A DNA stretch of 64,000 nucleotides, taken from the NCBI RefSeq assembly GCF_005860765.1, contig NZ_VCEI01000025.1:186001-250000 (forward strand), given 5' to 3'. The notes under the pieces are model-generated. The model saw only the letters and a list, made by a program, of their open reading frames with translations. It was not told the DNA's origin and searched no databases. Shown piece after piece: positions 16,004 through 56,224 of the stretch (position 1 is its first letter; every line of letters starts with the position of its first letter). Origin of the DNA: Dyadobacter sediminis (lineage in GTDB: Bacteria; Bacteroidota; Bacteroidia; Cytophagales; Spirosomataceae). A program made the position numbers and the translations under genes.

Positions 16004-18973
16004 TTACCGCGTCGCAGAATCCATGCGGGAAATTTCAGTGACTTCAATGCTCAGAAATCCGAATTCCTCCACAACGGTTCCGCAGATGCGGTAAATGCCT
16101 TTCACTGAAAAATTCGACTTGGCCGCTACTTCAGGAAAATGAACGGTATCGATAAAATGCCCTTTCTGATCCAGAAATGTTCCGAACTGCATGGTTTCTC
16201 CTTTTGATGTACGCGTGTTTTTAACAGCAACCATATAGCCGTACAATGTGACTTCATCATCAATATGCAAATCCAGATCTTCGGCCATGATGCTTTTGGG
16301 CAGCGCATTTTTCAGCAGGTTGAAAGGACTGCAGAGCGGAAAACCGAGCAGTTCAATCTGGTCATAAGCATCGTCGAGCGGTGTGGAATGGAAAGTCGGC
16401 AGTTTGTAATCTTTTATTTCAGAATGGAACAATCGTTTCTGCGGCACTTTGGCAGGACTTTTGGCAAGCTGGAAATGTGCTTTCCAGAGCAGCGTTTTCT
16501 TGTTGATGCCCGTAAACCGGAATGCGTCGATGCGGATCAGAATCGTGAGCTGCTCGATGGAAAGCGGCACGCGGTCCAGAAAATTGTTCAGGGACGTAAA
16601 TTCCCCTTCTGCTTCTCTCGCCTGAATGATTTTTAAAATGGTTTTTTCTTCGATTCCGTTCAGGAACTGCATGCCAATGTAAATGTCGGTACCTTCAATG
16701 ACCGTTTGTGCATAGCTGTGGTTTACGCACGGCGCCAGCACACTTGCGCCCAGCATACGCGCTTCGTGCACATACAGTTCGGTTGCGTAGAAACCGCCGC
16801 CGTTATTCAGCACGGCCACCATGTATTCCAGCGGATAATATGCTTTCAGAAAAAGCGTCTGATAACTTTCCACGGCATAGGAAGCGGAATGCCCTTTGGC
16901 AAAAGCAAAACTGGCAAAGCTGGAAATCTGCATCCAGATATCCTTGGCAAGATCCTCCGAGTAGCCTCTTGCCTTGCAGTTTTTGAAAAACTTTTTCCTG
17001 ACACGTTCAAATTCATCGCGCCCGCGAAATTTTCCGCTCATGCCGCGGCGCAGAATATCCGCTTCGCCCAGATCCAGACCGGCAAAGTAATGCGCAACCT
17101 TGATCACATCTTCCTGATAAACCATCACGCCGTAGGTATCTTTCATCAGTTCCAGCAGAATCGGATGTGCTTCTTTTCTTTTTTCAGGAATGCGGTGACG
17201 AAGAATGTATTCGCGCATCATGCCGCTTTTGGCAACGCCCGGACGGATAATGGAACTGGCAGCCACCAGACCGAGATAATTGTTCACTTCCAGTTTCCGC
17301 AAAAGCATGCGCATGGCAGGCGATTCAATATAAAAACAGCCGATGCATTGTGCCGCTTTGATCATATCATTGATCTTCGGGTCGGCCTTGAATTTTTTTA
17401 CATCATCAATATCGAATTCAGGCGCTTCAGGGCGGTTATAGCGGATGATTTCAATGGTTTCCTTGATTTTGGCCAAACCTCGCTGCCCGAGAATATCGTA
17501 TTTGTTAAGCCCGATATCTTCTGCAATGAGCATGTCAAACTGCGTGGTGGGAAAACCTTTCGGCGGCAGGTTCGTAGCAGAAAAATAGTTGATCGGCTTC
17601 TCCGAAATCAGGATTCCGCCGGCATGTATGCTCAGGTGATTAGGCTGGTTATTTTCCTGAAAATACTTTGCATACCGGATCACAAGCGTAGAAAACTGAT
17701 CCAGCTTTTTCGGATCAAATTTTCCTTCGCTGAGCAGATCAATTTCATGTGCCGCAAGGCCAAATACTTTTCCAAGTTCCCGCACAGCGGCACTGTGCTG
17801 AAACGTATTGTACGTTGCCAGCAAAGCCGTGCGCCCGTTTTTCCCATAGGTATCAAAAATGTATTTGGTAACGTCTTCACGGTCTCTCCACGAAAAGTCA
17901 ATGTCGAAATCCGGCGGGTTTTTCCGGTGCAGGTTTATGAAGCGTTCAAAGTACAGGTCCAGCTCAATCGGATCCACATTGGTAATATTCAGCAGGTATG
18001 CTACAATGCTGTTGGCGCCGCTTCCGCGTCCGACGTAATAGTAGCCTTTGCGGCGGGCATAGCTCACAATATCGTGATTGACCAAGAAAAAAGGCACAAA
18101 ATCCTGCTTCTGGATCATTTCCAGTTCCTTGGCGATCCTGTCAAAAATCTGGTCTGTAATGTTGTCGTCGTACCGGTAACCAAGCGCCTGATAACTCAGT
18201 GTGCTGAGTCGCTGGAAATCATCTTTTTCACTTTTTCCGAATATTTTCAGGTTCTGGTTTTCACGGCTGTCCCCAAAGCTGAAATGGATCTCACATTCTT
18301 CCATCAGCTTTGCGGTGTTGTAAAGAATTCTGTCAAATTCGTTATGCGTAAAATGATATTCCAGCACTTTCCACGGCACGATCTGCTCTGTTACGTCAGC
18401 GAATTCGGAAGGCAAAAGTTTGCCGAGCATGGAATTTTCATCAATGGCCCTCAGCAAACGGTGTGCATTGAAGTCGCGCTTGTTTCGGAAGCTCAGCGGC
18501 TGCAGCACGACAAATTTGTCTGTGTATTTTTTTAATGGTGAAATCCTTATTTTATCAAGATCCTTGATCGAAACGCCGATGTATTCGTTGGGAAACAGTT
18601 TTTGCTTTTTCAGTTTGAGCAGTTTTTCAAATGGATAGATGAAAACGGCATTGGCAAGCCTCGGTGCCTGGTCCGGAAAGTCCCTCTTGCAGTGCAGATG
18701 TTCTGATAAATAGGCATTCAGTTCCTGAAACCCTGCATTGTTTCGGGCAAGTCCCACAAACTGCTGCCGTATGCCGTTCCGGAAATCAATTCCAACAATG
18801 GGTTTGATGTTGTATCTGGGCGCCATGCGGATAAAACTCAGGCAGCCGGACGTATTGTTGATGTCTGTAAGAGCAATACAGCCGTAACCGTTGTCTCTGC
18901 TCATACGAAGCAATTCTTCTTCCGGGATCATTCCGAAACGAAGGCTGAAATAAGAGTGGCAGTTGAGTAGCAT
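16004..18973 (-). CDS. Short DnaE-like DNA polymerase III alpha subunit (DnaE2/ImuC-type role)
   Basis: This 989-residue C-family polymerase is clearly shorter than a replicative DnaE (about 1160-1200). The catalytic aspartates are present: Asp357 and Asp359 in PDFDIDF and Asp493 in KYDILG. The GRGSGANS motif before them is also conserved. The N-terminal PHP domain has lost canonical metal ligands: the usual ALTDH reads ALTDI, and only one His remains in NCHSYFS, so PHP proofreading is probably inactive. The C-terminus ends soon after an OB-fold and lacks a tau-binding extension. It lies 140 bases downstream of dinB on the same strand. By analogy with the imuB-dnaE2 cassettes, it probably extends DNA past lesions. 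I infer the role from size, damage to PHP and context. Confidence 0.85.
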   Translation of the reverse strand: MLLNCHSYFSLRFGMIPEEELLRMSRDNGYGCIALTDINNTSGCLSFIRMAPRYNIKPIVGIDFRNGIRQQFVGLARNNAGFQELNAYLSEHLHCKRDFPDQAPRLANAVFIYPFEKLLKLKKQKLFPNEYIGVSIKDLDKIRISPLKKYTDKFVVLQPLSFRNKRDFNAHRLLRAIDENSMLGKLLPSEFADVTEQIVPWKVLEYHFTHNEFDRILYNTAKLMEECEIHFSFGDSRENQNLKIFGKSEKDDFQRLSTLSYQALGYRYDDNITDQIFDRIAKELEMIQKQDFVPFFLVNHDIVSYARRKGYYYVGRGSGANSIVAYLLNITNVDPIELDLYFERFINLHRKNPPDFDIDFSWRDREDVTKYIFDTYGKNGRTALLATYNTFQHSAAVRELGKVFGLAAHEIDLLSEGKFDPKKLDQFSTLVIRYAKYFQENNQPNHLSIHAGGILISEKPINYFSATNLPPKGFPTTQFDMLIAEDIGLNKYDILGQRGLAKIKETIEIIRYNRPEAPEFDIDDVKKFKADPKINDMIKAAQCIGCFYIESPAMRMLLRKLEVNNYLGLVAASSIIRPGVAKSGMMREYILRHRIPEKRKEAHPILLELMKDTYGVMVYQEDVIKVAHYFAGLDLGEADILRRGMSGKFRGRDEFERVRKKFFKNCKARGYSEDLAKDIWMQISSFASFAFAKGHSASYAVESYQTLFLKAYYPLEYMVAVLNNGGGFYATELYVHEARMLGASVLAPCVNHSYAQTVIEGTDIYIGMQFLNGIEEKTILKIIQAREAEGEFTSLNNFLDRVPLSIEQLTILIRIDAFRFTGINKKTLLWKAHFQLAKSPAKVPQKRLFHSEIKDYKLPTFHSTPLDDAYDQIELLGFPLCSPFNLLKNALPKSIMAEDLDLHIDDEVTLYGYMVAVKNTRTSKGETMQFGTFLDQKGHFIDTVHFPEVAAKSNFSVKGIYRICGTVVEEFGFLSIEVTEISRMDSATR

Positions 18974-19113
18974 GTTAGTGGGAAAAATACTGGGTACTTG
19001 CTTTTAACGTTGGCAAAAAATGATCGATAGGAATTACTTTAAAGAGTCGGGTTTGAAGATAAAACATGCCGCTTGCCGAAAAATACAACTCGTAAAAGGG
19101 CCGCTCTGCCTTT

Positions 19114-20343
19114 TCACTGGTTGCGGTGCGCGGGAATAACGGGCGGTTCGCCGTTGAACGGATTTCCCATGCTGGCAATATTGGGTATGCCCAGCGTTGT
19201 GCCCCAGCTCAGGATCGCATTGCCGCGCTCGTCCGTTCCGTACTTGTTGCGGATATAATCCATGGCCTGATAAAGGTTCAGCCGTTCCTCGCAGTCGTCG
19301 AACATGTTGATCTGATAATTTCCGGTGACGAGATCGCTGAACGTGACGCCCACGAGGCGCACCATCATGCGGCGGTTATAAAGCTGATCAAACAGTTTTT
19401 CAACTTGCGGGATCAGCAGATGATCGGCGGAAGTGTAAGGGATTTTAATCTGTTTTGAAAAAGTGTTGAAGTCGGAATAACGGATTTTTACGGAAACGCA
19501 GGAAGTCAGTTTGTTGCCGTTGCGGAGTTGGAACGCAAGGTTTTCGGCCATGGCGCGGATCATTTCACGCATGCGGCGGACGTCGCCCGTATCTTTCCCG
19601 AAAGTACGTTCGTTGGAAATGGACTTGCGTTCATGAAACGGCACGATGGGCGTATCGTCGATGCCGTTGGCGCGGTTCCAGAGCACGATGCCATTTTTGC
19701 CCAGAACCCTTCCCATGACTTCCATAGGCATTTGCTGAACTGTTTTTACATATTTGATCCCGAGATTGTAAAGGATCTGGTTTGTCTTTTCGCCCACCAT
19801 GGGAATTTTACGGATGAGCATCGGCGCAAGGAACGGCTTTTCCTCGCCGGCTTCCACTTTCCGCTGATTGTCGGGCTTTGCAACGCCGGTGGCTACTTTG
19901 GAAACGATCTTGTTGGTCGAAAGTCCGAAGGAAATGGGAAGTCCGCTTTCACGCCTGATCCGGTTTCCGAGATTCGTCGCAATTTCATAGCAGCCAAAAA
20001 ACTTGTCCATGCCCGACAAATCCGCATAAAATTCATCAATACTCGCTTTTTCGAACAATGGTACTTCTTGCCGGATGATCTCTGTGACAGTTTTGGATTC
20101 CTTGGAGTAAGCGCCGGCATCGCCTTTGATAACCGTTGCTTCCGGGCAAAGTGCTTTTGCCATTTTCATGGGCATGCCGGAATGTACGCCGTAAGGCCGC
20201 GTTTCGTAGCTGCATGCGGCCACAACGCCGCGGTCTCCGATTCCTCCTACAAGCACAGGCCGGTTTTTAAGCCGGCTGTCATTTTTCCTTTCCACAGAGA
20301 CAAAAAATGTGTCCAGGTCCATGTGTAATATTGTTCGGTCCAT
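19114..20343 (-). CDS. dinB: DNA polymerase IV-like Y-family polymerase
   Basis: This 409-residue translesion polymerase has Asp9 (HMDLDTFF) and Asp103-Glu104 (SIDEFYAD), the three acidic catalytic residues of the Y family, so it is probably active rather than an ImuB-like inactive form. A likely beta-clamp-binding motif QINMF sits near the C-terminus. The frame extends to a TTG at 20382, but I chose the ATG at 20343: it gives the standard family start MDRTILHMDLD and leaves the promoter and operator 1 outside the gene. Its transcript would begin about 30 bases upstream. It heads the minus-strand operon with the DnaE-like gene and is divergent from the LexA-like repressor. Confidence 0.93.
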   Translation of the reverse strand: MDRTILHMDLDTFFVSVERKNDSRLKNRPVLVGGIGDRGVVAACSYETRPYGVHSGMPMKMAKALCPEATVIKGDAGAYSKESKTVTEIIRQEVPLFEKASIDEFYADLSGMDKFFGCYEIATNLGNRIRRESGLPISFGLSTNKIVSKVATGVAKPDNQRKVEAGEEKPFLAPMLIRKIPMVGEKTNQILYNLGIKYVKTVQQMPMEVMGRVLGKNGIVLWNRANGIDDTPIVPFHERKSISNERTFGKDTGDVRRMREMIRAMAENLAFQLRNGNKLTSCVSVKIRYSDFNTFSKQIKIPYTSADHLLIPQVEKLFDQLYNRRMMVRLVGVTFSDLVTGNYQINMFDDCEERLNLYQAMDYIRNKYGTDERGNAILSWGTTLGIPNIASMGNPFNGEPPVIPAHRNQ

Positions 20344-20369
20344 TGTGTTTGGAATTTTTACAAGTTTAT

Positions 20370-20421
20370 GGAATATTTCCAAATATATGGATGTTGTCCA
20401 AAATATGAAAGGAAATATTCC
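20370..20421. promoter_or_regulatory. Cluster of three 11-bp palindromic operators
   Basis: Three sites of the form GGAn-N3-nTCC occur in 52 bases: GGAATATTTCC (20370-20380), GGATGTTGTCC (20389-20399) and GGAAATATTCC (20411-20421). Sites 1 and 3 are exact reverse complements of each other. Sites 1 and 2 flank the dinB -7 element, and site 3 covers the -33 region of the repressor promoter. They are the obvious binding sites for the LexA/CI-like protein encoded alongside. The binding itself is inference. Confidence 0.75.
20380..20387 (-). promoter_or_regulatory. Candidate -7 element of the dinB-dnaE operon
   Basis: Read on the minus strand, these bases are TATATTTG, an exact TAnnTTTG match. 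The predicted start of transcription falls inside operator 1, about 30 bases before the dinB ATG at 20343. Confidence 0.6.
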
Positions 20422-20431
20422 AATTTTTTTG

Positions 20432-20439
20432 TATATTTG
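20432..20439 (+). promoter_or_regulatory. Candidate -7 element of the LexA-like repressor gene
   Basis: TATATTTG is an exact match to TAnnTTTG, 45 bases before the repressor ATG. Operator 3 lies about 20 bases upstream, over the expected -33 contact, which fits autorepression. Confidence 0.6.
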
Positions 20440-20483
20440 AATGTATTAAGAAAATCAAGGATTACGGATTTCATAAGCTGCAT

Positions 20484-21251
20484 ATGCTAATTGACGAAGA
20501 GTTCAGGCGCTTTAAGCAAGTAAGGGAAGAGTTGAATCTGACGCAGTCGGCATTTGCCGAAGAGCTGGGAATCAATGCGACTACGGCTGACATTGAAAGA
20601 GGCCGGACGCGCATACCCGGCCATGTTGTCAAAGAGCTTCTGAGAAAATACCATATCAACCCGTTATGGCTTTTTGGCGACAGCAAGCAGAAATACCTCT
20701 ATGCCGAAAAGATTCTGATGAGCCCCAAAGTAGTTACCGTGGACAGCTCGGGAAAGGAGAATATTGTAATGGTCAGTGCAAAAGCCGCGGCCGGCTATCC
20801 CAATAACATTGGCGATGCGCAGTGGTTTGAATCACTGCCCGCGTTCAGTATTCCGCTGCCCGAGTACCGCAACGCTACTTTCAGGGGTTTTCAGGTAGAT
20901 GGCGACAGTATGTCGCCCGTGCTGCATTCCGGTGAATGGATCGTCGGAAAGGCAGTTGAAGACTGGGAAAACCTGAACAACAAACAAATGTACGTTGTCG
21001 TGACGGTGGACAGTATTCTGGTGAAAAGGGTGCAGAAAGAAAATCAGGGCACGTTCATCAACCTTATTTCAATGAATCCGGAGTACGGCGCCATTCGTCT
21101 GGACCGCAGCGAAATCAGGGAAATATGGCTCGTGAACAGTAAGCTGACGTTTGACCTGGAAGCGGATGTGCAGCAGATAAGCCTGCAAAACTTGCATCAG
21201 GAAATGAAAGAGCTGAAAGAAGAAATGAAAAAGCTCGCAAAAGCCAAATGA
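20484..21251 (+). CDS. LexA/CI-like repressor (XRE HTH + S24 peptidase)
   Basis: This 255-residue protein joins an N-terminal XRE helix-turn-helix (about residues 8-60, LTQSAFAEELGINATTADIERG) to a C-terminal S24 autoprotease domain. The self-cleavage dipeptide is Ala103-Gly104 (AAAGYP), the nucleophile is Ser142 (GDSMSP) and the general base is Lys181 (ILVKRV). These are the residues needed for RecA-stimulated self-cleavage in LexA, UmuD and lambda CI. A short coiled coil ends the protein. Having an XRE rather than a LexA-type winged helix places it closer to phage CI. Divergent transcription from dinB-dnaE, with shared palindromes, suggests it represses both sides until DNA damage. Confidence 0.9.
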   Translation: MLIDEEFRRFKQVREELNLTQSAFAEELGINATTADIERGRTRIPGHVVKELLRKYHINPLWLFGDSKQKYLYAEKILMSPKVVTVDSSGKENIVMVSAKAAAGYPNNIGDAQWFESLPAFSIPLPEYRNATFRGFQVDGDSMSPVLHSGEWIVGKAVEDWENLNNKQMYVVVTVDSILVKRVQKENQGTFINLISMNPEYGAIRLDRSEIREIWLVNSKLTFDLEADVQQISLQNLHQEMKELKEEMKKLAKAK

Positions 21252-55823: not shown

Positions 55824-56216
55824 ATGAATTATTTATTAGACACACACATCTTAATTTGGCATTCAGACGATAATCAAAAACTTTCTGACAAGGTTCTTTC
55901 AATATTTAACTCTGCTTATACAGATCTGTATGTAAGTCATGCAACTTTTTGGGAAATGACTATCAAGAAAGGATTGGGAAAATTGGATCTGAGCGTTTCA
56001 GTGTCAAAATTTTATGAGGCTGTGATTGAGAATTCGTTTTGTGAATTGTTTTTTAATAGGGATCATTATGAAATTCTTGAAAATCTTCCCTTATTTCATT
56101 CGGATCCTTTTGACAGAATGATTATTGCACAGGCAATTACTGAAAATTTGACCATTATAACACAGGATAAAAAATTCAGGCTTTATCAGCAGTTAGTTCC
56201 TATTTTATGGAATTAA
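55824..56216 (+). CDS. vapC: PIN-domain toxin, VapC family
   Basis: This 130-residue protein is a PIN ribonuclease. Its four acidic residues are in place: Asp6 (LLDTHILIW), Glu44 (TFWEMTIK), Asp97 (PFDRMI) and Asp115 (ITQDKKF). PIN toxins cut tRNA or rRNA when the antitoxin is lost. The sequence is of the Sll0205-like subgroup. It is the second gene of a two-gene unit, and AT content is higher than in the neighbours. Confidence 0.9.
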   Translation: MNYLLDTHILIWHSDDNQKLSDKVLSIFNSAYTDLYVSHATFWEMTIKKGLGKLDLSVSVSKFYEAVIENSFCELFFNRDHYEILENLPLFHSDPFDRMIIAQAITENLTIITQDKKFRLYQQLVPILWN

Positions 56217-56224
56217 TCCATTCA

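Follow-up and report, generated by a model that had tools for sequence, protein, structure and literature searches.

A 64,000-nucleotide stretch of the genome of Dyadobacter sediminis (hereafter the window, located in contig C22 of a 6.2 Mb genome; Spirosomataceae, Cytophagales) contains a gene for a LexA/CI-like repressor that is divergent from dinB and dnaE, which encode a Y-family and a C-family DNA polymerase, respectively. We consider it very probable that this locus is the SOS-control switch of Dyadobacter and that its repressor is a non-canonical LexA of Bacteroidota, of the GGA-N5-TCC type. An earlier sequence-only reading of the window had suggested that the module might be the phylum's own SOS circuit. 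Its picture of an S24 repressor of the self-cleaving type, with a CI/XRE domain, opposite two active-looking polymerase genes is supported, and an SOS circuit remains very probable. Its remark that it knew of no well-characterised LexA regulon in Bacteroidota is not supported: this very repressor family, with its motif, electrophoretic mobility shift assays (EMSA) and induction by mitomycin C, has already been reported (Sanchez-Osuna 2021; PMC8565304).

The repressor and the predicted operators of its divergent promoter

Three GGA-N5-TCC palindromes, overlooked by the sequence-only reading, lie in the region shared by the repressor gene and dinB (Table 1). This region measures 140 bp (20344-20483) when dinB is started at the ATG at 20343, which we prefer and which makes the numbering of its catalytic Asp9 correct; the longest open reading frame (ORF) begins from a TTG at 20382. 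The number of such palindromes expected by chance per region is 0.019, and three were present in none of 20,000 first-order Markov resamplings. Each strand also carries a TAnnTTTG box, the consensus at -7 for the flavobacterial housekeeping sigma factor (PMC9723704). Counted from the first base of the GGA, the dinB-strand box follows site A by ten bases and the repressor-strand box follows site C by 20-23 bases in all 24 named Dyadobacter loci. Because the boxes overlap or neighbour the predicted operators, occupancy of A or B should block dinB, and occupancy of C, which should cover the -33 region of the repressor promoter, should block the repressor's own expression.

Table 1. Position of the genes, predicted operators and putative promoter boxes in the window, and of a further conserved ORF elsewhere in the genome.
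Feature	Position	Strand	Remarks
dnaE, C-family polymerase, 989 aa	16004..18973	-	DnaE2-like size; Pfam, ORFs, motifs read
dinB, Y-family polymerase, 409 aa	19114..20343	-	Pfam; catalytic acids intact
Probable non-canonical LexA, CI/XRE-type HTH and S24 autoprotease, 255 aa	20484..21251	+	Pfam; residues read
Predicted operator A, TGGAATATTTCCA	20369..20381		Equivalent site in 24/24 named Dyadobacter loci
Predicted operator B, TGGATGTTGTCCA	20388..20400		Equivalent site in 24/24 named Dyadobacter loci
Predicted operator C, AGGAAATATTCCA	20410..20422		Equivalent site in 24/24 named Dyadobacter loci
Putative dinB -7 box, TATATTTG	20380..20387	-	Two-base overlap with operator A; abuts operator B
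Putative repressor -7 box, TATATTTG	20432..20439	+	Operator C starts 22 bp upstream
Conserved ORF of about 60 residues (MEILHFTIVSEEMVWIWYYDSLGSKHLKELL...)	Own genome C1, about 172852-173022; L237, 1344-1523	-	Two GGA-N5-TCC sites 19 bp apart

We propose that dimers of the repressor would occupy the three operators and thereby block both its own promoter and that of dinB-dnaE. Upon DNA damage, RecA filaments would trigger self-cleavage of the repressor at Ala103-Gly104 through Ser142 and Lys181, and expression of dinB-dnaE, umuD and a handful of further genes would follow. The Y-family polymerase, perhaps brought in by RecA, might cooperate with DnaE to bypass lesions, with no need of ImuA or ImuB.

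Pfam identifies a helix-turn-helix (HTH) domain (HTH_3, PF01381; 34.5 bits, cut-off 23) and Peptidase_S24 (PF00717; 43.4 bits, cut-off 23.3) in the repressor. Its only matches are HTH_3, HTH_19, HTH_31 and Peptidase_S24, which bears out the earlier assignment of an XRE rather than a LexA-type DNA-binding domain, and the winged-helix domain LexA_DNA_bind (PF01726, accession as given in PMC8565304) is not among them. The repressor is 55% identical, over 248 residues with zero gaps, to a protein (L136) of Salegentibacter agarivorans DSM 23515; this is the same strain as that of the published regulator, WP_075324850.1, to which L136 may correspond. Among the matches listed, the nearest repressor locus is that of D. 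flavalbus NS28 (98%). According to the search, the repressor match contains one TGA at each of two loci (L009 of genome G104 and L038 of genome G353).

The N-terminal HTH and the S24 domain also have matches among phage repressors (phrog_4, E 2.4e-22), and the whole family is thought to be derived from phage repressors (PMC8565304), as might be expected of a CI-type repressor of a prophage or mobile element that came to lie beside dinB-dnaE by chance. Such an origin for the locus is extremely improbable, as the flanking genes are ordinary chromosomal ones (ABC transporter, lipocalin-like and M16-like peptidase, from ORFs and Pfam) and the arrangement is kept in all 24 named Dyadobacter loci.

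The cleavage site and the Ser142/Lys181 dyad were read directly from the sequence. Some LexA-like proteins, such as IrvR, are independent of RecA, and the repressor could likewise answer a signal other than RecA on single-stranded DNA. We regard this as quite improbable, because the cleavage residues are intact and all four (A103, G104, S142 and K181) are unchanged throughout 23 aligned homologues, and because genes of the family are induced by mitomycin C (PMC8565304).

Both polymerases are apparently active, judging from their intact motifs. DinB has the Pfam domains IMS and IMS_C, with Asp9, Asp103 and Glu104 present on direct reading, and DnaE has PHP, DNA_pol3_alpha, DNA_pol3_finger and HHH_6, its motifs PDFDIDF (354) and KYDILG (491) being aligned with the corresponding parts of the solved Pol III alpha chain 2hpi_A. 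The coordinates, strands, sizes and residues given by the sequence-only reading all proved correct when checked against the ORFs and the residues themselves. At the N-terminus of DnaE (window 18973-18938, minus strand) LNCHS takes the place of LHQHT in the solved Pol III alpha, so that the first PHP histidine is apparently Asn. The C-terminus of DinB has an INMFDD stretch followed by a helix-like segment, and by eye these resemble clamp-binding and RecA-N-terminus-like motifs. Three Y-family genes are present in the genome, none of which resembles a dead ImuB; the other two keep their acidic motifs or are paired with UmuD. The earlier claim that imuA is absent holds insofar as the 140 bp between dinB and dnaE contain no gene, although no search with an ImuA model was made at the locus or genome-wide. 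Across the 24 Dyadobacter loci this gap ranges from 21 to 1308 bp, and in some species (L096, L103 and L114) opposite-strand HigBA-like toxin-antitoxin ORFs lie between dinB and dnaE.

Conservation and ancestry of the probable switch

Nine aligned repressors were searched against contigs of one genome per species, and the best 80 loci comprised 24 from Dyadobacter and 56 from Flavobacteriales. At each of the 24 named Dyadobacter loci the intervals between the three sites are 19 and 22 or 23 bp, dinB is divergent and dnaE lies beyond it. Among these best 80 loci, two of the 56 from Flavobacteriales (Gillisia lutea, L130, and a Flavobacteriaceae metagenome-assembled genome, L143) have the same divergent order of the three genes, with sites 19 and 23 bp apart; the flank was too short to judge gene order in at least two of the others (L119 and L137). 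Within 200 bp upstream of the repressor, every Dyadobacter locus has at least three sites (72 in all, against 0.94 expected), and 54 of 55 Flavobacteriales loci, L137 being left out on account of its flank, have at least two. The motif was found in none of 43 distant repressor loci over the same distance, the gene start of about ten of these having been extrapolated from a partial match. Ten Dyadobacter loci from a family-wide genome search, which overlap with the named set, have three sites each. Outside the genus, four of 49 dinB loci (in G250, G353, G254 and G045) carry GGA-N5-TCC sites and 45 do not; all four genomes have a GGA-type repressor, which argues for the assignment made here. In G173 the repressor is present and no dinB was found at threshold.

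Matches to the repressor at 1e-20 occur in 25 of 121 genomes of the family, close matches being confined to the ten Dyadobacter and G045 (43%). In the repressor tree a clade of 24 rows, including L136, unites Dyadobacter, G045 and flavobacteria with a support of 100, and G045, the sole other carrier in Spirosomataceae, falls outside on a long branch. The DinB tree joins Dyadobacter to eight further rows from Spirosomataceae at a support of 92 (not starred), and the tree of the first 480 residues of DnaE joins it to six of them (support 96), two of the eight having been dropped as they have no DnaE at the locus. The association of the repressor with Flavobacteriaceae and of the polymerases with Spirosomataceae suggests that the repressor moved horizontally and that the polymerases did not, a conclusion with moderate support from quick trees that leave the direction open. 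Transfer of the whole module from Flavobacteriaceae had been suggested by a DinB BLAST identity of 68% to flavobacteria, but was rejected because the trees disagree with it. A DinB tree constrained to unite Dyadobacter with flavobacteria of the GGA type was worse by 12.6 log units (p-AU 0.047, a borderline value for a group that was named after inspection of the tree).

A fuller history can be offered only tentatively. Dyadobacter may have acquired its repressor from a lineage of the Flavobacteriaceae type and retained its own polymerases, so that only the operators were exchanged. A protein of about 60 residues, restricted to the genus and under SOS control, may belong to the resulting regulon, possibly as a damage checkpoint factor. 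The locus shows in any case that LexA-type repressors of unrelated kinds can be set over closely related polymerase operons.

Sites beyond the locus

The module had been described as self-contained. The same operator, however, also precedes umuD in this genome, where 37 bp separate a GGA-N5-TCC site from the longest umuD ORF downstream of it, and umuD, SRAP and a small protein are preceded by it in other Dyadobacter. A pattern of paired sites was searched in 41 Dyadobacter genomes, with the reversed pattern as a control, and gave matches in all 41 (181 forward against 22 reversed, of which two per genome are possibly the module's own). Paired sites lie before umuD in G434 and also in G426, G429 and G420, three genomes in which SRAP adjoins them. 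Among 20 paired loci outside the module, ten lie upstream of an ORF of about 60 residues and one upstream of its degenerate relative; three lie upstream of umuD, and SRAP is on the opposite side at two of them; three are near a GDSL-type hydrolase, one precedes an unassigned ORF, and for two no gene could be assigned. Four Dyadobacter genomes (L320, L327, L328 and L340) have a GDSL-type hydrolase with a twin-arginine-like start close to paired sites of the SOS type.

Thirteen alignable copies of the small protein were found in 11 Dyadobacter genomes, two degenerate copies being set aside. As these loci were found through the paired sites, the sites are present by construction; the recurrence of the same ORF is not. 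The proportion of nonsynonymous differences (pN) is below that of synonymous ones (pS) in each of the 78 pairwise comparisons, with an uncorrected median ratio of 0.39. At 13 of 13 loci the second site is followed by a TAnnTTTG box, 12-13 bases from the first base of that site. No Pfam or NCBIfam family was matched at cut-off and no PHROGs entry at E 1, the best sub-threshold values being E 0.02-0.08. When 395 genomes from the class were searched with a profile, it was found only in D. sediminis, the sole Dyadobacter sampled. By analogy the protein may be a damage checkpoint factor, which is a guess; in the literature covered, we found no SOS cell-cycle factor named for the phylum. A small gene behind paired operators is in any case a concrete new target.

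Across the genome, 116 sites per strand fit the pattern TGGA-N5-TCCA and 34 fit its reversed form; for the AT-restricted version the corresponding counts are 56 and 7. A large regulon deduced from this raw excess was rejected, as most single sites lie within genes; site counts alone therefore define no regulon. ORF lists for 12 loci moved several of the 14 AT-restricted sites first placed outside genes into longer ORFs. One single site lies 41 bp upstream of an MnmE-like ORF (L263). In the window itself, TGGAATTAATCCA (56208-56220) falls in the final part of an ORF of 130 aa that is PIN-domain-like by eye, a position that is not promoter-like.

Several observations weigh against the locus being the SOS switch. 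Neither recA nor the other dinB of the genome has a GGA-N5-TCC site within 400 bp, and the flavobacterial genome G302 has the repressor and no site at its closest dinB. Of the 56 AT-restricted sites, 42 are intragenic and 14 outside, by rough codon-usage gene calls. An AlphaFold model of the repressor from 23 sequences is poor (mean pLDDT 63) and adds little. Finally, a second S24-XRE protein, 38% identical to the repressor, is encoded in the same genome (C1:1535034-1535789; L033, L285) and may share or hold the damage response. Its gene is divergent from that of a MerR-like regulator, and a palindrome of its own, GATAT-N5-ATATC, lies upstream of it in four of five Dyadobacter paralogue loci.

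The repressor might then govern only its own polymerase operon, as a local cassette, with another regulator such as this second S24-XRE protein running the SOS response; divergent repressor-dinB pairs with unrelated motifs do recur in other Bacteroidota, including Elizabethkingia (PMC8565304). We judge this unlikely, given the sites before umuD here and in four further genomes, and the absence within 400 bp of recA not only of GGA-N5-TCC but also of CTAA-N5-TTAG and GATAT-N5-ATATC. The recA of S. agarivorans is likewise not induced by mitomycin C (PMC8565304).

Comparison with known systems

Among the papers listed, we found none that joins Dyadobacter with the SOS response and LexA, or that describes the locus or the small protein. 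The name Dyadobacter is absent from the main text of PMC8565304, although its supplementary tables or Figure 7 may list the genus, and that paper of 2021 could not assign the Cytophagaceae homologues to a motif group. Dyadobacter can now be assigned to GGA-N5-TCC by sequence, motif and promoter layout, which settles for this genus a point open since then, and its compact divergent promoter is convenient for testing. What is new here is modest: the small protein, a suggested mosaic ancestry, and the presence of this kind of switch in Cytophagales.

Among the closest known systems is the GGA group of S. agarivorans, whose regulator binds GGA-N5-TCC by EMSA and is induced together with its targets, recA excepted, by mitomycin C in reverse-transcription quantitative PCR; in this group dinB and a gene for DNA polymerase III alpha often share an operon that carries the same motif (PMC8565304). 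Dyadobacter shares with it the S24 domain and CI-type HTH, the Ala-Gly and Ser/Lys residues, a terminal helix, operators at the repressor's own promoter and at dinB-dnaE, and umuD and SRAP as targets. It differs in belonging to Cytophagales (Spirosomataceae) rather than Flavobacteriaceae and in having three operators in one divergent promoter, and adjacent polymerases are found at only two of the 56 flavobacterial repressor loci among the best 80. Elizabethkingia anophelis likewise has an SOS regulator divergent from an error-prone polymerase gene, both induced by mitomycin C, but that regulator is a CTAA-group paralogue with the motif TTAC-N5-GTAA (PMC8565304).

The sequence-only reading had likened the arrangement to lexA-imuA-imuB-dnaE2 cassettes. 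The likeness is loose: a LexA-controlled Y-family gene beside a second dnaE is common to both, whereas the Dyadobacter operon has neither imuA nor an inactive ImuB and its repressor is not of the PF01726 type. A published counterpart is PolY2 + DnaE2, two apparently active polymerases without ImuA/ImuB that were named as a Bacteroidetes variant in 2019 (PMC6511836). As in Cellulophaga algicola (PMC6511836), an active-looking Y-family gene is adjacent to a DnaE2 gene in an operon without ImuA/ImuB; in Dyadobacter, however, the pair, whose DinB is a candidate member of the PolY2 group, is head-to-head with the repressor. Taken together, these two published halves (PMC8565304 and PMC6511836) describe the Dyadobacter locus.

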